The position numbers and the translations under genes were made by a program. A stretch of 64,000 nucleotides of DNA from Aminivibrio sp. GTDB lineage: Bacteria > Synergistota > Synergistia > Synergistales > Aminobacteriaceae. The stretch covers positions 62,001-126,000 of the forward strand of contig NZ_JAESIH010000055.1 in assembly GCF_016756745.1 (NCBI RefSeq), read 5' to 3'. Shown piece by piece: positions 38,576 to 59,737 of the stretch; positions within the stretch are counted from its first letter, which is position 1, and each line of letters begins with the position of its first letter. The notes beneath the pieces were generated by a model. The model did no database searches. It was not told the DNA's origin and saw only the letters and a list, made by a program, of their open reading frames with translations.

Positions 38576-39736
38576 CTAGTAGGCCATCTCCAGGATCCGG
38601 AGGATGTCCTCCCTCTCGATCTTCCGCACCGCCCCGAGGGGGGCGAGCTTCGCCGCGTTGTCGGCGATCCTGGGCAGATCCGCCTTGGCCACTCCGACTT
38701 CCCGGAGAGTCACGGGAGACCCGAGGGAGCGGAAGTACTCCCTTAGCGCGCGGATACCTCTCAGGGCCCGGTCTTCACCGTCCCTGATGCCGAAAACATG
38801 TGCGGCGAGCCGTTCGAACACGGGTTCCGCGTCCCTGTACACATATTCCATCCAGGCGGGCATGATGATGGCCAACCCCATGCCGTGGGGGACGTCAAAG
38901 ATGGCGCTCAGGGAGTGCTCGATGCGGTGGGAGGCGAAATCCCCCCGGGTGGGACGGCCCACGTTGCTCATGCCGTTGTGGGCCAGGGTGCAGCACCAGG
39001 CGAGTTCCGCCCGGGCCTCGTAGTCCGCCGGATCCTTCACGAGCTGGGGAATCCGGCGCATCATGGCCCGGATGAGGGTTTCACAGTAGTCCTGGACAAA
39101 GTCGAGCCCCGGGCAGGAGACCACGTAGGCCTCGAGGACATGGGTGACGGCGTCGATTCCGCCGCTCACCGTCTGGCCCTCCGGGAGGCTCGCCTGGACC
39201 GACGGGTCGATGACGGACACTTTTGGGACGAGGACGGGGGACGCTATCGACCACTTGCTCTCGTCCTCTTCCCTGGTGACCACGGCGGTGTTGTTCATCT
39301 CCGAGGAAGTGCCCGACGCGGTCAGCACGCCGTAGACGGGCAGGGCTTCCTTCACGGCCGCCCTGCCGCAGAAGAAGTCCCAGACGTCGCCGTCGTAGAG
39401 AGCCCCCATGGCAGCCGCCTTCGCCGTGTCGAAGACGCTTCCCCCGCCCACGGCCAGCACGGCTTGGGCTTTCTCACTCTTCAGCAGGGCGACGACGTCC
39501 CGGAGCTTGGACAGCCTGGGGTTCGACCGGACGCCCCCCATTTCGGCATAATGGATGCCGTGTTTCTTCAGGGATTCCGTCACGGCCTCGTGGACGCCGT
39601 TTTTGAAGATGGAACCTCCTCCCGCCACAAGGACCACCTTGGAAATCCCGTCCGCCGCAAGGGCATCTCCGATCTGCGGAATGGTTCCCCTGCCGAAAAT
39701 GATTTTTGTCGGCGCGTAAAATGTAAAATTCTGCAT
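38576..39736 (-). CDS. Iron-containing alcohol dehydrogenase (butanol dehydrogenase-like)
   Basis: A 386-aa group III dehydrogenase starting MQNFTFYAPTKIIFGRGTI. It has the NAD(P) loop AVGGGSVFDTAKAAA (about 94-108), GTSSEMNNTAVVT, and metal-ligand histidines in VSGGIDAVTHVLEAY, DFASHRIEHSLSAIFDVPHGMGLA. It is closest in style to YqhD/BDH NADPH-dependent aldehyde reductases. The start is backed by AAAGGAG. It is a single-gene unit, and its fermentation substrate is not inferable. Confidence 0.93.
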   Translation of the reverse strand: MQNFTFYAPTKIIFGRGTIPQIGDALAADGISKVVLVAGGGSIFKNGVHEAVTESLKKHGIHYAEMGGVRSNPRLSKLRDVVALLKSEKAQAVLAVGGGSVFDTAKAAAMGALYDGDVWDFFCGRAAVKEALPVYGVLTASGTSSEMNNTAVVTREEDESKWSIASPVLVPKVSVIDPSVQASLPEGQTVSGGIDAVTHVLEAYVVSCPGLDFVQDYCETLIRAMMRRIPQLVKDPADYEARAELAWCCTLAHNGMSNVGRPTRGDFASHRIEHSLSAIFDVPHGMGLAIIMPAWMEYVYRDAEPVFERLAAHVFGIRDGEDRALRGIRALREYFRSLGSPVTLREVGVAKADLPRIADNAAKLAPLGAVRKIEREDILRILEMAY

Positions 39737-39836
39737 GTTTTTCTCCTTTCGCCGAGGAACTCCCGGCATGAACAGTATTGTACCCCCGGAAGCCGGAGGA
39801 TGTATAATGGCGGCGAAGAACAAAGGAGATGATACC

Positions 39837-40055
39837 ATGGGAACGGAAACCAAAAAGAATCCGCGGAAAACGGGGCAACCCTCACCCCTTGCCAGGCAGA
39901 TCCGTATCATCTTTTACACTGTTTTCATCTGCATCACCATAGTGCTTCTCGCCGTCTCCCTCGATCTCATGATCAATCCGTCGAAAAACTGGACGGATTC
40001 CCTCGCCATCCGCTGGATATCGGAACGGCGGAACATGCTGCCCTTTTTCAGGTAA
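39837..40055 (+). CDS. Small single-pass membrane protein
   Basis: A 72-aa protein with a basic N-terminus (MGTETKKNPRKTGQPSPL), one transmembrane segment (about 24-45, RIIFYTVFICITIVLLAVSLDLM) and a short tail. AAAGGAGA with 7-nt spacing sets the start, and a TATAAT lies at 39803-39808. I know no family for it. It stands alone with its own terminator-like hairpin. Confidence 0.7.
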   Translation: MGTETKKNPRKTGQPSPLARQIRIIFYTVFICITIVLLAVSLDLMINPSKNWTDSLAIRWISERRNMLPFFR

Positions 40056-40082
40056 ATCCCTTTCCCGCATAAGCCTCCCGGG

Positions 40083-40137
40083 CGGCAGCGCGGCGAACGT
40101 GGTTCCGCCGTGCCTGCGCCGGCTGCTTTTTTCCCCC
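40083..40137 (+). terminator. Probable terminator of the small membrane-protein gene
   Basis: An imperfect hairpin with outer arms CAGC / GCTG and inner arms GCGGCG / CGCCG is followed by T6. It lies 27 bp after the stop. Confidence 0.55.
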
Positions 40138-40294
40138 TTTACCCTTTTCCAGCCGGGCTTCCCTGAACATTCTTTTGAAGAAGAAGACAGATTTTGATCG
40201 GCCGTTCTCCGCCGTGATATTGTATGCTATCATTGCATTCAATCCGGAAATCCGGAGAAGTATAACGGTCAATGCGACCAGGGAGGCAATACCA

Positions 40295-41200
40295 GTGTAT
40301 CTCGCAGGAGTTTTGTACTGTTGCGCAGCGGCTGTCTTCTGGGCTCTCGGCCCCGTATTCCTGAAAAAGGGGCTCGCCTTCCTGGACCATACCGAAATGG
40401 CCGCCTCCCGTACCATCGGGTTTGTGGCGGCTTCGCTGATTTTCTGTATTCTCGACCCGAACGCCTTCATTATCTGGCGCTTTCCTTCCCGGCTGCTTCT
40501 CTTCGTCTTCCTGAACATCCTCGTGGGAAACGTTCTCGGAGACCTCTGCTATTTCAAGTCCCTCGAACTCATCGGTGTGAGCAGGGCGGTGGGAACCACC
40601 TGCTGCTATCCCCTCTTCGTCGCCGCCATCTCCTTCTTCTGGCTCGGGGAGTCAATTACCCTTCCCCTCGTCCTGGGCACGGGCGTCATGATCGCAGGGC
40701 TTTTGATGCTGAAATCCGGAGGCCGGAAGACCGCCGACGCCGGGGCGGAAACTGCATCGTGGAAGGGCTTCCTTCTCGCCCTGGCGGCCGCCTTCAGCTG
40801 GGCCGCCGTCATGGTGCTCCAGAAATGGCTGCTGTCCGTCCACGACCTCCCCGCCGCATCCGTCACCCTGTGGCGTGCCCTGTTCCTCTTCGCGGTGTCC
40901 TGGGGCATCTGGGCCTGGCGGACGAGAAAAAATCCTGAAAAGCGGCTCCACCTGCTGACGGCGCCCAGGGCAATCCGGGCTTACGCCATCGCCGCCGGAA
41001 TCTTCGGCCTCGCCGCCGGTGGGTACGTTTTCGCCCTGGCCATCAGGATCATCCCGGTATCGGTGGCAACACCGATCACGGCAACGAGCCCCCTGATCGC
41101 GGCGGGCATGGCGGTGGTTCTGTTCCACGAGTCCATGCGGCCCGTGCAGTGGGCGGGCATTCTCTGCATCCTCGGGGGAGTGCTTACCGTCAGCACCTGA
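40295..41200 (+). CDS. EamA/DMT family transporter
   Basis: A 301-aa transporter with ten predicted helices arranged as two EamA repeats (about 5-145 and 160-300). The GTG start (VYLAGVLYCCAAAVFWALGP) is preferred because GGGAGG lies 9 nt upstream and it begins directly with the first helix; an upstream extension is not membrane-like. Drug/metabolite exporters of this family move amino acids, sugars or other small molecules; the substrate is not inferable. Confidence 0.88.
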   Translation: MYLAGVLYCCAAAVFWALGPVFLKKGLAFLDHTEMAASRTIGFVAASLIFCILDPNAFIIWRFPSRLLLFVFLNILVGNVLGDLCYFKSLELIGVSRAVGTTCCYPLFVAAISFFWLGESITLPLVLGTGVMIAGLLMLKSGGRKTADAGAETASWKGFLLALAAAFSWAAVMVLQKWLLSVHDLPAASVTLWRALFLFAVSWGIWAWRTRKNPEKRLHLLTAPRAIRAYAIAAGIFGLAAGGYVFALAIRIIPVSVATPITATSPLIAAGMAVVLFHESMRPVQWAGILCILGGVLTVST

Positions 41201-41268: not shown

Positions 41269-42282
41269 CTAGAACTCCAGGATGACCTTGCACACCTCCG
41301 AGGGGTTTTCCTCGATGAACTTCATTACCTCCCGGACCTGTTCGAAGGGGAACCTGTGGGACACGAGGAGTTCCGGATGTACCGAACCGTCGGAAAACCA
41401 CGAGATGACCTCGGGGAACTTGTTCCGGTTGAGCCGGGAGCCGAAAATGGAGAGCTCTTTCTTCACCGCCTCGAGCTGGACGAAAGACGAAGGCTCCTTC
41501 GAGAACCCGAGCAGGCCTATCCGGCCCGCAGGGGATGCCATGCGGAGAAGGGAGGGGAACAGGTCGGGGTTGCCTACGGCGTCGATGATGAGCGGAACCC
41601 CTGCCCCTCCGGTCCATTCAGCCATGGTATCCTCCAGGGAAGCCTCCCGGGTGTTGACCGCGAGCTCCGCCCCGAGGGAGCGGGCTTTCTCAAGCCGCAC
41701 GTCCACGATGTCGGCCACGGCGCAGGCCGTTCCGAGCCTCCGGGCCGCCTGCAGGATCACCCGGCCTATGGGGCCGGCGCCCAGGACAAGCAACCGGTCG
41801 CTTCCCGAGCACTCCGTCCTGGAGAGGACGTTCGCCGCGATGGTGAACGGCTCGACGAGGGCCCCCTTTTCGAAGGACCAGTCGAAGGGAATTTTGTGAA
41901 GGTTTTTTTCGGGGAGGGCAATATATTCCGCAAACCCCCCATCCCTGTGGACACCGAAGACTTCCAGCCGCTCGCACACGTTGGGGCGGCCTATGGAGCA
42001 GGGATAGCAGGTTCCGCAGCCGACGACAGGATCCACCGCCACGTGATCCCCCCGGGCGTATTCAGTCACACCGTCCCCTACAGCCGCAATTTCTCCGGCA
42101 AACTCGTGGCCTATGACCCTCGGGTATTTCGCGAGAGGGTTGGTGCCGTGGTAGATATGCATGTCCGAGCCGCAGATGCCCCCGGCACGAACCCGGACGA
42201 GCACTTCTCCCCTTCCCGGCTCGGGGACGGGAACTTCCCGGATTTCAAGACTGTGGGGCTCCGCTACATACACGACTTTCAT
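41269..42282 (-). CDS. Zinc-binding alcohol/polyol dehydrogenase (MDR family)
   Basis: A 337-aa medium-chain dehydrogenase. Catalytic zinc motifs GICGSDMHIYHG and GHEFAGEI, the four-cysteine structural zinc lobe (CGTCYPCSIGRPNVC), and the Rossmann loop VLGAGPIGRVIL are intact. It resembles sugar-acid dehydrogenases such as L-galactonate or L-idonate 5-dehydrogenases. It is the gene after kduD, and a paralogous C-terminal fragment lies upstream of kduD. That context suggests hexonate or hexuronate catabolism; the exact substrate is inference. Confidence 0.88.
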   Translation of the reverse strand: MKVVYVAEPHSLEIREVPVPEPGRGEVLVRVRAGGICGSDMHIYHGTNPLAKYPRVIGHEFAGEIAAVGDGVTEYARGDHVAVDPVVGCGTCYPCSIGRPNVCERLEVFGVHRDGGFAEYIALPEKNLHKIPFDWSFEKGALVEPFTIAANVLSRTECSGSDRLLVLGAGPIGRVILQAARRLGTACAVADIVDVRLEKARSLGAELAVNTREASLEDTMAEWTGGAGVPLIIDAVGNPDLFPSLLRMASPAGRIGLLGFSKEPSSFVQLEAVKKELSIFGSRLNRNKFPEVISWFSDGSVHPELLVSHRFPFEQVREVMKFIEENPSEVCKVILEF

Positions 42283-51926: not shown

Positions 51927-53111
51927 CTATTCCCTCACGATGTCAATGATCGTCACTTCGGGAGGGGTGAGGAACCGTATGGGAGGACCCCATGTTCCAG
52001 CGCCGTTGTTCACGTAGATCCGGCTCTGCCTCTTCAGGGGAGCCGCATGGGCCTGCCCGCTCCTCTCCGGGGGGGCGATGGCCCGAAGGCCCGGCCGGTA
52101 ATCGTAGACCGCCCTGGTCACCCAGTAGAACGGCCAGATCTGGCCGCCGTGGGTGTGCCCGGAGAGTTGGAGATCAAACAGTCCCACCGCATCATGGTCG
52201 ATGAGCGGCTGGTGCTTGAGGAGCACCACGAAGCGGTTCGGCGGCATCCCCGCCAGGACGGATGCGTCCTGCGCGGCAGGGCGGCCGTACCGGTTGCCTG
52301 TCTTGTCGTCCACGCCGGCGAGAATGACGCCCCCGGCACGAACAGCCTCGTTCCGCAGAACCCTCAGGCCGGCATGTTCCATGAAGGCCAGGGACTGGTC
52401 GATGCCCGCATAGTATTCGTGATTTCCCGTTACGGCGTAGATGCCGTGGGGCAGCTTCAGGGACCGGAAAAGGGCGACCTCGGGCCGGCGCTCCTCCATT
52501 CCGCCGTCCACAAGATCCCCCGTGACGACGAGCATGTCGGGTTCCGCCTTCCTCACCGCATCGAGCATGGCTGCCAGCCGTTCCTCCTGGATAATCCCCC
52601 CGAGGTGCACGTCGGAGAGCTGGGCGATACGGACACGGTCCGCTCCTCTCGACAGCTTCGATGTGGGGATGGTGATGGTGACCGTCCTGACGTTCAGCGC
52701 CTCGAACCAGCCGTACAGGCAGATGGAAAGAGCGGCGGAGACGGCTACGGCCGCCCGCAGCTTCGGCGAACCGAGCAGGTCACCAAACCTGGTGGAGACG
52801 ATGCTGTCGAGAATATAGAAGAGCAGCCTCGCCAGGTCGATGAGGACAAACCAGGCGAAGGTCATGAACATGAAGGCCATCCACACGTACCCCGAGTAGG
52901 AAAGAACCTTCCGAAGGGTGCGGGCATCCCCGAAGTCGAAGAGCCACAGGGCCCTGGCGCCGACGATCATGGCCAAAGACACCATGATGAAAAGGGCGGT
53001 CCATTTCCAGCCTCTTCCTATGGCGCTTCTCAGCTTGAAGTAAACATAGACGTGCATGCTTCCGTAAACCAGCACGTAGAGCGAAAAAAACACGGCAAAA
53101 CTCCGGCTCAT
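51927..53111 (-). CDS. Membrane-bound metallophosphoesterase
   Basis: A 394-aa protein with about four N-terminal helices (to about residue 140) and a calcineurin-like phosphoesterase domain. Metal motifs are present: LSDVHLGG, VTGDLVDGG, GNHEYY, LKHQP and the C-terminal SGHTHGGQIWPF. The layout resembles YaeI/YkuE-type phosphodiesterases, which act near the membrane on lipid or nucleotide substrates. It stands just downstream of the polysaccharide-type cluster on the same strand, with a 105-bp gap. Confidence 0.9.
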   Translation of the reverse strand: MSRSFAVFFSLYVLVYGSMHVYVYFKLRSAIGRGWKWTALFIMVSLAMIVGARALWLFDFGDARTLRKVLSYSGYVWMAFMFMTFAWFVLIDLARLLFYILDSIVSTRFGDLLGSPKLRAAVAVSAALSICLYGWFEALNVRTVTITIPTSKLSRGADRVRIAQLSDVHLGGIIQEERLAAMLDAVRKAEPDMLVVTGDLVDGGMEERRPEVALFRSLKLPHGIYAVTGNHEYYAGIDQSLAFMEHAGLRVLRNEAVRAGGVILAGVDDKTGNRYGRPAAQDASVLAGMPPNRFVVLLKHQPLIDHDAVGLFDLQLSGHTHGGQIWPFYWVTRAVYDYRPGLRAIAPPERSGQAHAAPLKRQSRIYVNNGAGTWGPPIRFLTPPEVTIIDIVRE

Positions 53112-53216: not shown

Positions 53217-54554
53217 TCAGAATTTCGTTTTCCTGAGCACCCACCAGGGAGCCATGTCGGTGTCAAGATGGCCCCGTCCGGTCATTTCCCAGAGGATCGC
53301 AAAGGCGGACCAGATCCGGGTCACGAAGGTGAAAACGGGCATGAGCGGAAGGAGGGGAATGAGCATGCCGTCTTCCCGCGGGCGCTCGGAGAGGAAAAAG
53401 AGCGTTACGAGGAAGAAAAAGGTCTCCACAGTGAAATAGAAAAGATAAACGAGCCCCATTATGACACCGATGACGGACATGGGAACGGTCGCCAGAAGGA
53501 ATACGGTGTAGAGGAACAGAAGCAGGGGCGTGACGATCTGGAAGAGCAGCCCGCCCACCGTGGAAACGATGAGGTTCGGCCACCCCATGAGCCTCGGGGA
53601 GAAAGACCGGAAATGTTTGAGAAAGTAGAGGTAGAAAAGATCCCCGTCCCACCGGAGCCTTTGCCTGAAGAAACCGCGGAAAGTGTCCGGAGCGTCCGTA
53701 TGCCCCATCACCTCTGGGTCGAAGACGATGCGCAGGTTCCGGTGCCTGCCGAAATAGTTCTTCACCCTGAGGGTGAGATCCAGGTCTTCTGCGGTCCCGG
53801 CATCCCACCCGCCGATGAGGGTAAGAACGTCTCTCCTGAAGATGCCGAAAGCTCCGGAAATGTTGTTGACCGCGTTGAATTCGCTGAGCCCCGTCTTGCT
53901 CGCGAGGATGGACACGAGGTACTCTACGGCCTGAAGTGCGGCCGCCGGTGAATCCCTCCAGTTACGCACCCGGAGGCACCCCGAAACGCACATCACGTCG
54001 GGGTCGCTGAAGTGGCGGACGGCATTTTCCACCATGTCGTTGTCGAAGGAAGTATCGCCGTCCATGGCCATGACCACGTCTCCCGTGGAGAGGGCGAAAC
54101 CGGAGTTAAGGGAGGAAACCCTCCCTCCTCTTTTCCACTTGGGAAGGCATTTCAGCACCCTTCCCGGGAGGGAGGCCACCTCTTTCTCCATCTCATAGGC
54201 GGCGTCGTAGGTGGGCTTGTTGTCCGAAGCGCCGTCCAGGACCGGGATGATCTCTATCTTTCCGGGATAAAGCTGCGCGGCCAGGCTCCTGATAGTCTTC
54301 CGGATATCCTTTCCCTCCGAGTAGCATGTGACGATGCAGGATACGGGCGGAAAGACGTTACACCGCAAAGGCTCCGAATGTCTCTTTCTGATGAGATACC
54401 TGAGAATACCGGAGAAAACAAAGAGATAGTAAGGCAGCTCCAGAGCAAGGATGAAGGGGACGAACCTGAAGACGACCACCCAGAACTCGGAGGCGAGGGG
54501 ATCATCGACAAAGGCCCGCAGACCCCGGAAAAGGAAAAGAAGCCAATCATCCAT
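53217..54554 (-). CDS. Processive family 2 glycosyltransferase (BcsA/PgaC-like)
   Basis: A 445-aa membrane glycosyltransferase. An N-terminal helix pair (about 24-55) precedes a GT-A domain with the UDP-binding DGAS (about 107), the metal-binding DGD at about 165-167, the ED catalytic pair at about 257-258, and Q-R-L-R-W at 298-302, the acceptor motif of processive beta-glycan synthases. Four or five C-terminal helices follow. It is the last gene of a four-gene unit and lies 6 bp after the TackOD1 gene. It probably polymerises and extrudes an exopolysaccharide; the sugar is unknown. No PilZ domain is present. Confidence 0.9.
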   Translation of the reverse strand: MDDWLLFLFRGLRAFVDDPLASEFWVVVFRFVPFILALELPYYLFVFSGILRYLIRKRHSEPLRCNVFPPVSCIVTCYSEGKDIRKTIRSLAAQLYPGKIEIIPVLDGASDNKPTYDAAYEMEKEVASLPGRVLKCLPKWKRGGRVSSLNSGFALSTGDVVMAMDGDTSFDNDMVENAVRHFSDPDVMCVSGCLRVRNWRDSPAAALQAVEYLVSILASKTGLSEFNAVNNISGAFGIFRRDVLTLIGGWDAGTAEDLDLTLRVKNYFGRHRNLRIVFDPEVMGHTDAPDTFRGFFRQRLRWDGDLFYLYFLKHFRSFSPRLMGWPNLIVSTVGGLLFQIVTPLLLFLYTVFLLATVPMSVIGVIMGLVYLFYFTVETFFFLVTLFFLSERPREDGMLIPLLPLMPVFTFVTRIWSAFAILWEMTGRGHLDTDMAPWWVLRKTKF

Positions 54555-54560
54555 GAACGG

Positions 54561-55928
54561 TCAGCCCTTCAGCCGTTCCATAAGAAGCACGGCGTCTTCT
54601 CCCTCCACCCTGTCCCTGGGAAAGACCATCGTTTTCACGGAAATTTCCAGGACGAGGCCGTCGGGCTGCCGGGTCTCCTTTTCAAGCGCCCTCACTTTTG
54701 ACGCCAGAACGGTACAGCCCTTTTCTCCCGTCTTGGGAAGAAGAAGGAGAAGATCGTTTTCCGCCGTCCTTGTGCTGATATCTGTTTTTCTGATGTTCTC
54801 CCGAAGACGCTTCGCCACGCTCTCCATTATCTCCGTCACCTTTTTCCGGCCGACCGTTTCCCTGACCTTTTCGGCGTTGGGGAAGGAAATGACCATAAGG
54901 CTGAAGGGCTCCGCAGGTGGTCTCTCGGAGAGCTGGAGCTGCCAGTCGAGGATATAGCGGAACGGTTCCGGCTTGGTATAGTTCAGGGCATCGAAGACAG
55001 AATACAAATCATCCGTGTTTCCGCTCCTGACGGCAATTATTCCCTTGTCGGAGAGGGAATACTCCCTGAAAGAGCGCACCGACAGCCCATCCACCGGGCT
55101 CCATGTACCGCAGAGGAAACACCTGCACGAGACATCCGGTTCCGCAAAAGTCTGGGAACAGGAGGTGCAGAGGTAATTATCCATGGGCCTGTCATAATCC
55201 GAACCGATATGGCGGAGCCTTGCGCCGCAGAAGGGGCACTGCATGGACCCCTCCCTTACAAAGGCCTCCTGGGGGCCTACCCTTCCGCATGTGAAACAGT
55301 GAACGAATGGAACCCGGCGGATGTCCATGCTTCTGCAGAAGGGACAGACATCCACGTAATTCAGGTGGGCACCGTCGCATTTCGGACACGCCCGGATCCT
55401 GTCGGTAAGGGTCTCTTCTTCCAGGTAACCTTTCTCGAGCAGCTCGGACAGCCACCTGGACGAATCCATCAGCCCGCCCGAGAGATAATCCGCGAGAGGA
55501 TAGGAATAAAGCTCCCTGGAAAATGGGTCGAGAACAGGTCTGAGTTTTTTCCCCTCCCGGGAATAGAGAAAGGCCAGGAGCCTGAGATCGAGGCTTTTTC
55601 GGAGAGCCTGTTCATCCACATCCCGCAGCCTGTTTCCTATCTTGAGGGCAAGCTTTTCCATCTCATCTCTCGTCCTGGCCGGTCCGTCCGCCGCCTCCTG
55701 CTCCCTGTCCGACGAGAAATCCTTCAGAAAAACAGGCAGAAGGGCCGTTTCGTCTCCCTTCCGGAGCTCCCTGAGCATATGGCCGCATTCGCTGCCGGAT
55801 CCGCACCTGCCGAGGATAAAGCCGTCGGGGAGCCCCTCACCCGAGGAGAGGGCTGCGGGAAGGTCCCCGGGACCCGTGAGAAAGAAAAGATTCATTTCTG
55901 AGACATGTTCGCTTCCCTGGTCTTTCAT
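54561..55928 (-). CDS. TackOD1 zinc-domain protein with degenerate GGDEF domain
   Basis: A 455-aa cytoplasmic protein. The first ~110 residues look like a decayed receiver-type domain. Residues 181-273 hold four CxxC pairs, in CPKCDGAHLNYVDVCPFC, HCFTCGRVGPQ, CPFCGARLRHIGSDYDRP and later CTSC and CRCFLC, matching the TackOD1 output domain. Residues about 315-455 resemble a GGDEF domain, but the signature position reads AENDL (389-393), so it should not make cyclic di-GMP. GGAGGG supplies the ribosome site. It lies between the HlyD-like and glycosyltransferase genes and probably regulates the synthase. Confidence 0.82.
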   Translation of the reverse strand: MKDQGSEHVSEMNLFFLTGPGDLPAALSSGEGLPDGFILGRCGSGSECGHMLRELRKGDETALLPVFLKDFSSDREQEAADGPARTRDEMEKLALKIGNRLRDVDEQALRKSLDLRLLAFLYSREGKKLRPVLDPFSRELYSYPLADYLSGGLMDSSRWLSELLEKGYLEEETLTDRIRACPKCDGAHLNYVDVCPFCRSMDIRRVPFVHCFTCGRVGPQEAFVREGSMQCPFCGARLRHIGSDYDRPMDNYLCTSCSQTFAEPDVSCRCFLCGTWSPVDGLSVRSFREYSLSDKGIIAVRSGNTDDLYSVFDALNYTKPEPFRYILDWQLQLSERPPAEPFSLMVISFPNAEKVRETVGRKKVTEIMESVAKRLRENIRKTDISTRTAENDLLLLLPKTGEKGCTVLASKVRALEKETRQPDGLVLEISVKTMVFPRDRVEGEDAVLLMERLKG

Positions 55929-55941
55929 GCTTTCCCTCCTG

Positions 55942-57039
55942 TCATGGTTCCCCGGAGAGAAGCTGCAGGCTTTTCCGGAGAGAAAAACCGAAATGGACGG
56001 ACACCGGCAGTCCCTCGACGCGAAGGTGACCGGCAAGGGGTTCATCGAGATCGATCCTGACGAGCAGTGCCTGCTTTCCCTCCGCCAGTACGCCGGCAAG
56101 TTCCGCCGGAATGCGGGCGGCGATTTCCGGCGCCGCAGAAACCTTGCCGGAAACCGAAAGGCTTCCCGGCAGGCGCACGATAACCTTCTCGCCCTCCTTC
56201 GCATAGGAAATGTGCCTTGGCTGCAGGTAGGCCATCACCTTCATGGACTGGGGTCGCCCCAGGAGAACCAGGGGGGCTCCCCCGGCGACGGATTGTCCCT
56301 CGGTGGGAAAAACGTCCAGCACCCGTCCTTCGCCGGGGCTGACCACGGAGAAAAATCCCTTCCGTTCTTCCAGCCCTTTCAATTCCGCCTCAATCTGGGC
56401 GATCCTTGTATTTCTCTGGGCCGCTGACTCCAGCCTGGACAGATCCGGCACCTGGAGAAGGGCCCTTGCAGCCCTGGCCTCAGCCAGGGCTGCAAGGGCC
56501 TGCCTGTACCTGTCCTCGGCGGCGTCGGCTTCAGCCCTTGTGGCGGCTCCCTGCCTGAAGAGATACTGTACCGAATCCCTGTATCCTTTCTGGTACCTTA
56601 CGCTCTCCTCCGCTATGCGGACTCCGGCAAATACGGCCCTGGGAGGGAAGTTCCCCGCCGCACCGGGCACTCCGACCTTCAGTGCCTCCAGTTCCGCCTG
56701 CAGGACGTAGATCCTCTGGGTCACCACAGGGTCTTCCAGGCGTATGAGCAGGTCGCCGAGAGCCGTCCTGGCGCCGGGGGACACGTAAATTTTCTCCACC
56801 ACCGCGGGGAAGGGGCTGTTGATGCTGACCTTCTCCAGGGAAATGACTCCCGGGGCATTTATTAAAAACATGGCGGCCCCGACCCGCCAGAGAAGGAAGA
56901 GAAGGGGGGACGAAATGACCAGGACGAGGATGTACCACCTCCATTTCGGTACCGCCCGCTTCGCAGGACCATACCTGACGAGAAGACCTCCATCTTCATC
57001 GGGATTCTGCTTTTTCGGTGAATCAAACCTGACTTTCAT
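55942..57039 (-). CDS. HlyD-type membrane fusion protein
   Basis: A 365-aa inner-membrane adaptor with a cytoplasmic N-terminus, one helix (about 35-60), a split lipoyl/barrel-sandwich domain (ISLEKVSINSPFPAVVEKIYVSPGA and FSVVSPGEGRVLDVFPTEGQSV), a long coiled-coil hairpin between them, and a C-terminal beta-barrel. It resembles the Alg44/HlyD adaptors of polysaccharide exporters but has no PilZ domain. Its ATG overlaps the stop of the TolC-like gene (ATGA), and AAGGAGA precedes it. It should bridge the synthase to the outer-membrane tube. Confidence 0.85.
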   Translation of the reverse strand: MKVRFDSPKKQNPDEDGGLLVRYGPAKRAVPKWRWYILVLVISSPLLFLLWRVGAAMFLINAPGVISLEKVSINSPFPAVVEKIYVSPGARTALGDLLIRLEDPVVTQRIYVLQAELEALKVGVPGAAGNFPPRAVFAGVRIAEESVRYQKGYRDSVQYLFRQGAATRAEADAAEDRYRQALAALAEARAARALLQVPDLSRLESAAQRNTRIAQIEAELKGLEERKGFFSVVSPGEGRVLDVFPTEGQSVAGGAPLVLLGRPQSMKVMAYLQPRHISYAKEGEKVIVRLPGSLSVSGKVSAAPEIAARIPAELAGVLAEGKQALLVRIDLDEPLAGHLRVEGLPVSVHFGFSLRKSLQLLSGEP

Positions 57040-59197
57040 CGGGCCATCTCCTTGTAGTTTTCCCATGACTGCACTACCGTACCGGCAAAGGAGGAAGAAG
57101 CCAGCTCCCCCTGAAGAAAATCGACAGCCTCAAGGAAACTCTTCTTTCCTCCCTTGAAAAAACTTTCCGAGGGGGGCAGCTCCCTTTCCACGGAAAGGGC
57201 GAGCCGGAAACGCAGCCCCGGCCAGGAGGAGAGAATGGCTTTCATCCTCGAGGCAACGGAGTCAACCTTCGTGGAATAGATCATAACGGCAATTTCATCC
57301 ACTCCAGCGGCTCCGAAGCCCTTTGCAGCAACGGGGCCGAGACTTCCCTCAAGATAGCGGGGATGGACGGAAAGAGAAACGGGCAGCCTGGCGGCTCTCT
57401 TCACCTCGCGGACGGTCTCCGTGAGGGACAGAAGCAGTTCCATGCGGCGTGCTTCGGCGTCCGGCAGCTGATCCGGCTCAAGGTCAAGGTGGATTCCCGA
57501 AAAGGCAAATCCGCCCAGTTCCCTTACGAGATCCGTAAGTTCCTTTCTGTGGGCGGCAAGGATCCACGAAGGATCCCCAAGAAGAAGCTCTGCCCTGACG
57601 CCGGCCCTGCGTGCAGCTTCTAGGGCCTCATCCAGGCGGGCCTTCCCCCCTGCGGTTCTCAGGAAGGCGATGCCCCGGGGTGAAAAGGAGACAAGTATCC
57701 CCGAGACACCCTCTTTGGCTGCCTGTTCGAAAAAGGCCCTCCCCTTTCCCGGATACAGCAGATCGTCTCCCTTCCAGAAATAAAACATCTGTCCCTTAGG
57801 GGAAAGGACCGGCTTGCCGACGGCAGGTGCTGAGGGAGACTCCGATGGAAAGGCAAGCCACGAAGGGGCCAGGAGACGATGCCGTTCGGGCTCTTCAGGG
57901 AAAAAGGAGGCGATTTCCTTTCCCTCTCCGCGGTCCCCGGTCTCAGGCAGCATTCCAAGGAGTTCGCAGTGGGCTTGGAGTAGTGCCCCTTCACTGTCGA
58001 CAAAATCCAGGGCAGACGAAAAGTAGATGAACAGGCTCCTGAAGAGCTGCTCCAGCACATCTCCGGGGAGAAGGCTATACCGGAGCCTGTCCGCCCGTAC
58101 AGCCTCCGCCGCCGACCGGGCATTGGCCATGGCAAAGGCTCGCTGGGCCGCGGCGGAGTCGAAGCGGAGAATTCCCCCCCGAATGTCCCCTACGATAGCA
58201 AGGCGCCGCGCCTCCATTTCGTGCCCGGCCTTCTCTGCACCTGCCCTGGCGGCCCGTCCCGCTGCGGAAGCAGTCCGGCCTTCCCTGAAAGGCACATCGA
58301 AAGCTATGGAAAGAAATGCCTCCGTGCCGTTCCTCCCCGGAAACTCGGAGGAAAAACCGTAGCCCGCCCTGAGGTAGGCGTCGTACTGGGCCTTGGGAAC
58401 CCGGCGCGCTATCTCCCGTTTCGTCTCAGCGGCCTCGGTGAGAATCTGCAGTTCCCTGTTTTCCTCCCCGGCGGCGCGGGCAAGGACATCTTCGGAAAAG
58501 AAACGGGGTTCAAGGTGCGGGAAGAGGACCTCCAGATCGGAAAGACCACCCCGGCCGGTCGCCTTCCGTATAAGGGCAAGACACTCCTCTTTCAGGGAGG
58601 CATCCGCTGCAGCTTCTCTGCGGGCAAAGGCAAACCAGCTCTCCATCTCGAGGCGGTCCCGTTCGAGAAGAAACCCCTCCTCCGCCCTCTTCGCGAGGAG
58701 CGGCATTATCCGCTCCTCAAGGGCAAGAAAGCGCTCGAGGAGCGACTTCCTCTCCTGTATCGTCCACAGCAGAGCATAGGCCTTCCTGAGGGCTGTGAGA
58801 TTCGCTTTCCGTACCGCGAGGAGACGAAGCTCCTCCTCGAGGGACAGAATCCGGCTTTCCAGTTCCCTTATCCGTTCTTTTCGCCAGGTACCGAAGAGAG
58901 GAATGGAGACGCCGCCTCTGACCCACAGCTTCGAATAGCCTTCCAGGACCGAGGTATCGCTCCTGGAAGCGGGCTCATTGAGACCGCTTAGGGAGAGTTC
59001 GCCGAAAAACCTGGACCCACCGGTCATCTTCTGGCGCTCTTCGATGGCCCTGCTCTCCGATAGTGATGCCGCTGCCGCCAGTACCTCGGGAGAGGCGGTC
59101 AGTTCACTTTCGAGGTCACGAAGAGCAATCCGAGGTTCAGCAAAGCTGTATTCCCGGAGAAAAAAAGCACAAACAAGGCAAGCAGTATTCGTTTCAT
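57036..59197 (-). CDS. TolC-like outer-membrane protein fused to a TIM-barrel glycosidase-like domain, with frameshift in the signal peptide
   Basis: The well-placed start (GGGAG, 7-nt spacing, ATG at 59197) opens MKRILLALFVLFF, a signal peptide, but that frame stops after 32 codons. The main frame, shifted by -1, takes over at the T7 tract (59166-59160) and reads LREYSFAEPRIALRDLESEL to the end. Joined, the product is about 720 aa. Residues up to about 440 form TolC-like long helices (many AAETKREIARR-type coils, one GVSIPLFGT strand segment). From about 470 a TIM-barrel-like domain follows with GIHLDLEPDQLP (about 568-579), whose acidic residues look catalytic. It leads the unit, with a possible AGGACA / TATGAT promoter near 59255-59290. 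Confidence 0.75.
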
Positions 59198-59361
59198 GTG
59201 ACAACTCCCTGTAAAAAACACATTCTTTGTCATTGAATATGGATTCGAAACAAAACCATGGAATCATACAATTTGAAAGAAAGCCTGTCCTGAATAGGCT
59301 AAAATTTTTATGTATTCTACCATCGGACATCATTCCTTGTCTATTATGGGTGAACCTAAAT

Positions 59362-59626
59362 CCTAAATCCGCACCTCAGCGGGGAGCGACACCGGGGACC
59401 GCTTGGACGGGGGGTGCGGATTGTCGCCTTTGACAACTGCCAAGGCGAGTCCCGAGGCTCCCCGCGTTCGCCTGCTGCCTGCCTGAAAAACCGACATCCG
59501 TGTCGGTTTCTCTCCCCTCAGGGGATTCATCCGCAAAGAGCGCGGAGCGAAATGGTTTCGCCCCCGGGGAGGGCAAATCCTTATACCCGGCGGCACTCCC
59601 TCTGCCTGGAAATTAGCGGATTTAGG
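59362..59626 (-). repeat. Long-form dispersed repeat, copy R5 (265 bp)
   Basis: It is inverted relative to R4 and R6, with ends CCTAAATCCGC and GCGGATTTAGG. It keeps the core hairpin AAACCGACA / TGTCGGTTT. It has a longer module with CCCCTCAGGGG and a GCGAAATGGTTTCGC hairpin, and the GGCTCCCCGCGTTCGCC segment shared with R4 and R6. No clean target duplication is seen. Confidence 0.85.
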
Positions 59627-59737
59627 AACTGGAACTTCCGCTCTTACCCGTCCGGATCGCCGAATACCTTCCCCCGGGAGAATACGCGCTTTCCCTTAAA
59701 AAAGATCCCGGGAAGTCCGTGTTTCCCCTACAGTGGC

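Follow-up and report, generated by a model that had tools for sequence, protein, structure and literature searches.

The window, a stretch of 64,000 nucleotides from a contig of Aminivibrio sp., carries on its minus strand a conserved block of genes that opens with an exporter gene and continues with intact genes for a membrane fusion protein, a TackOD1-GGDEF protein, a glycosyltransferase and a phosphoesterase (Table 1). The same gene order, with the same lengths of 374, 547, 445 and 394 codons for the genes that follow the exporter, is found in a metagenome assembly of Synergistaceae (L028). Judging from this gene content, the block resembles a synthase-dependent polysaccharide export operon, and its function is proposed on that basis. 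The TackOD1 domain was described from archaeal response regulators and is found in some bacteria as well (PMC5847659). In the fusion protein encoded here, the signature motif of the GGDEF-family domain looks degenerate by eye.

Table 1. Features of the exporter gene and of the genes downstream of it (window coordinates).
Feature	Position	Strand	Remarks
Start codon ATG of the exporter gene	59195..59197	-	aligned with the ATG of three relatives
Short ORF in the 0 frame	59102..59197	-	32 sense codons; TGA at 59099-59101
T7 tract (A7 on the plus strand)	59160..59166	-	T8 at the homologous position in G002/L003/L028
Exporter body: TolC-like OEP region, then an alpha/beta barrel-like region at the C-terminus	57036..59138	-	700 codons and stop; PF02321; orthologues in 13 other genomes; dN/dS 0.11 against G002
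C-terminal region, predicted TIM-barrel-like	57036..57860	-	low-confidence model; in the PDB, closest in fold to a GH18 chitinase
HlyD-family membrane fusion protein, intact	55942..57066	-	PF13437, E=6e-8
TackOD1 and GGDEF-domain protein, intact	54561..56204	-	PF18551, E=7e-66; PF00990, E=7e-9
Family 2 glycosyltransferase, PgaC/NodC-like, intact	53217..54554	-	PF13641, E=7e-22; best NCBIfam match TIGR03937, below its cut-off
Metallophosphoesterase, intact; the conserved block ends with this gene	51927..53111	-	PF00149, E=1e-15; order kept in L028

The body of the first gene matches the outer membrane efflux protein (OEP) family PF02321 above its gathering cut-off (E=7e-10; 39.4 bits, with the cut-off at 22), and the label of exporter given to it in the earlier note, which had been made from the letters alone, holds for this TolC-like domain. 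No further stop or frame break lies within the 700 body codons. The last ~270 residues of the body found no match in NCBIfam and Pfam searches. The AlphaFold model of the exporter is poor (mean pLDDT 47, with two sequences in the alignment), and only its barrel-like C-terminus was taken, cautiously, from it. The gene product is a TolC-like channel that carries a predicted TIM-barrel domain at its C-terminus; that this barrel might be a glycoside-hydrolase-like domain attached to an outer-membrane channel is only a suggestion from the model. A GH18-like stretch, GIHLDLEP, is present in the C-terminal domain, and the domain itself occurs in the full-length orthologues. Several other OEP loci are found elsewhere in the genome, and the exporter is not its sole TolC-type gene.

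The beginning of this gene is split between two reading frames. A ribosome-site-like GGGAG stands 7 nt 5' of the ATG at 59197, and the short frame opened by this ATG translates as MKRILLALFVLFFSGNTALLNLGLLFVTSKVN before it reaches its stop, as had been described from the letters; the description of a 700-residue body in the -1 frame is likewise borne out, that frame running to a stop at 57036-57038. The run inside the 32-codon ORF is exactly T7, and the 0-frame codons across it, CTT-TTT-TTC, form U-UUU-UUC, a heptamer of the X-XXY-YYZ form. The body frame, in addition, stays open over the 79 codons that precede the body, and the two frames overlap over the entire 32-codon ORF. Because of this overlap, the ends of the frames are insufficient to place the join at the T7 tract, where the earlier note had put it exactly; the position nevertheless stands by homology, through the comparison with the closest relative, G002, which carries T8 there.

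An open frame upstream also permits a reading in which the body is translated from an ATG at 59333, in the same frame and hence with no break at all, and an AAGGA just upstream of that codon would suit it. The leader that would result is, however, unlike a signal peptide and not conserved in G002, the best promoter-like site (59343-59314, a weak one) would start transcription downstream of this ATG, and the competing ATG at 59197 is the one aligned in relatives. We therefore rejected ATG 59333 as the start, and a gene beginning there is scarcely credible.

Orthologues were searched for in 61 genomes, the window's own and 60 relatives, of which 18 gave a match to the exporter. The closest relative, G002, belongs to the same genus but to a different species, and its body is 87% identical; going by the length of 182,835 bases, L003 and L028 stand for the same contig as this one. 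Its sequence at the tract, ...GATGCTTTTTTTTCTCCGG..., contains T8, and signal peptide and body form one continuous frame, reading MKKLLLAFLMLFFLRGNSRAEPRIGL; the -1 reading of the window, ...LFFLREYSFAEPRIAL, matches this peptide residue by residue. The suggestion in the earlier note that a T8 would fuse the frames is thus realized in this relative. In G021 and G003, with bodies 67-69% identical, the protein is read in a single frame from a hydrophobic leader, and the same is true of the body in ten more distant genomes, so that all 13 orthologues (from 13 genomes) are single-frame and show no break. Tract length, whose comparison among relatives the earlier note had proposed, is T8 in G002, and a run of at least seven T's is present at the homologous position in none of the twelve other orthologues. 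Given the in-frame T8 of G002 and the single frame of the twelve others, the frame break is private to the window's genome and its assembly, and a difference of one base in run length accounts for it.

The same comparison bears on programmed -1 ribosomal frameshifting, which had been offered as a way to link the signal peptide to the body at U-UUU-UUC. The heptamer has the appropriate form in the 0 frame at the junction, as in dnaX-type frameshifting, and a hairpin follows it. The likeness to the dnaX type goes little further, as there is no conserved break (0 of 13 orthologues), no correctly spaced stimulator, and a sister sequence that is in frame already: with the T8 of G002, the 0 frame holds the body and a -1 shift would exit it. 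The only hairpin begins 0 nt past the heptamer, against about 5-9 nt expected. In a test of hairpin folding against shuffled sequences, the window's sequence does barely better than the shuffles (z of -1.6 to -1.8), and a z of -0.04 was obtained for the homologous stretch in G002. Orthologues without the homopolymer, which the earlier note had named as evidence against its own proposal, number twelve, and we regard programmed frameshifting at this site as extremely unlikely.

Slippage of RNA polymerase on the T7 tract could in principle restore the frame in a useful share of transcripts, and homopolymer slippage has been reported to mend broken frames in bacteria (PMC1088944). A run of seven T's is, however, below both published run lengths: selection against A/T runs was found in many genomes at about nine bases (PMC1088944), and T runs of >8 are cited for programmed realignment (PMC3711429). 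A substantial contribution of this kind is very unlikely.

A third possibility, following the slipped-strand phase variation raised earlier, is that T7 and T8 are two states of a contingency tract that toggles export by slipped-strand mispairing, T8 being on and T7 off. What stands of this proposal is that the run length differs between two congeneric genomes exactly so as to toggle the frame, and that the tract sits in the signal peptide of a surface-export gene; in these respects it is similar to phase-variable surface genes of Helicobacter and Neisseria (PMC2715451, PMC5084427), in which a homopolymer whose length toggles the frame lies close to the 5' end of a surface-related gene. In contrast to these genes, the tract here has only 7-8 bases, which is short for a contingency tract, and is missing in the more distant orthologues, while long runs are not in excess in the genome. 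The 507 kb analysed of the window's genome hold 39 runs of 8 bases where 68 are expected from a first-order Markov model of the same sequence, 2 runs of 9 bases against 20 expected under such a model, and no run of at least 10 bases. This depletion looks like avoidance of long runs, and no sign of a contingency-locus system was seen. Moreover, T7 and T8 come from different species, with one genome compared per species. Evolved phase variation is accordingly weakly supported at best. Toggling of the tract between T7 and T8 is very unlikely, and we consider it equally unlikely that such toggling serves an environmental Synergistaceae bacterium to remove and restore the signal peptide of the channel of a polysaccharide-export operon.

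Selection on the gene can be compared with that on its neighbors. Against G002, dN/dS is 0.11 for the exporter body, 0.13 for the HlyD protein, 0.15 for the TackOD1-GGDEF protein, 0.08 for the glycosyltransferase, 0.20 for the phosphoesterase and 0.10 for a neighboring symporter; the exporter thus falls within the range of its intact neighbors (0.08-0.20), a pairwise value being an average over the whole divergence that is silent on present function. Taken with the lesion-free body, this ratio would fit a gene whose function was lost only very recently or is still retained. The dS of the exporter against G002 (0.65) is about twice that of the operon neighbors (0.33-0.38) and reaches its highest value, 0.73, in the OEP part; recombination might be the cause.

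We contend that this is very probably a gene of the usual kind, with a single frame, and that the loss of one T from the T8 run seen in its sister has put its signal peptide out of frame. This loss would be either a consensus error in the assembly or a recent deletion by replication slippage in the sequenced population, and the two are about evenly balanced. If the deletion is real, translation would yield mainly the 32-residue peptide, with ribosomal or polymerase slippage supplying no more than traces of the outer-membrane channel. The earlier note had listed a sequencing error as the plain alternative; an error or a recent one-base deletion is indeed what fits best, with neither of the two favored over the other. 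The break occurs in one genome only, its homologues are intact and there is no other lesion, as is characteristic of singletons that result from indels or sequencing errors. Where homologues and Pfam both confirm a singleton frameshift, it has been attributed to one or the other of these causes (PMC3711429), and the present case is similar to the singleton frameshifted genes of GeneTack described there in being confined to a single genome, in its support from homologues and Pfam and in its break at a homopolymer, with no notable difference.

As a guide to whether error or mutation was at work, ~298 kb of the window's genome, comprising the 133-kb contig and parts of other contigs, was aligned to G002, an alignment that took in 119 runs of at least 7 bases in the window's genome. 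Indels were screened through the codon phase of the mismatches on either side, and the main isolated ones with a change of phase were translated; scanning all ORFs automatically for frameshifts gave too much noise, owing to antisense ORFs. With the exception of the T7 site and a gene for an S9-type peptidase, the translated phase-changing indels are intergenic or located at gene ends. No comparable simple coding frameshift was thus seen among the candidates examined in the ~298 kb aligned to G002, which argues that the assembly is not broadly damaged at homopolymers. The peptidase gene (contig C43, ~39602-40646, L068-L069) is frameshifted and lacks ~300 internal residues, and it is intact in G002. 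As these internal residues have been lost as well, it is a genuine decaying gene and no plain homopolymer error, and real gene decay does occur in the window's genome.

The reading as recoding finds no support, and the case is an ordinary one-base homopolymer deletion, true or artefactual. Its mechanistic weight is small: once a single relative settles the reading frame, a heptamer that looks slippery at the junction of two frames does not count as evidence for recoding. Annotators should enter the gene as frameshifted within an export operon that is intact in its other genes, as a pipeline may otherwise lose the signal peptide or call a 765-codon ORF from the wrong start.

Rfam searches of the 5' region of the exporter gene and of a ~260-bp intergenic repeat just upstream of it (window 59361-59627) gave no match. 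This repeat is bounded by perfect inverted repeats of 12 bp, TCCTAAATCCGC/GCGGATTTAGGA, and 38 matching pieces were found in ~507 kb of the window's genome versus 4 in the part of G002 that was searched. It represents a MITE-like family that seems to have expanded in the window's species. Copies of it also flank the S9-type peptidase gene on contig C43, at 38808-39079 and 41991-42241.
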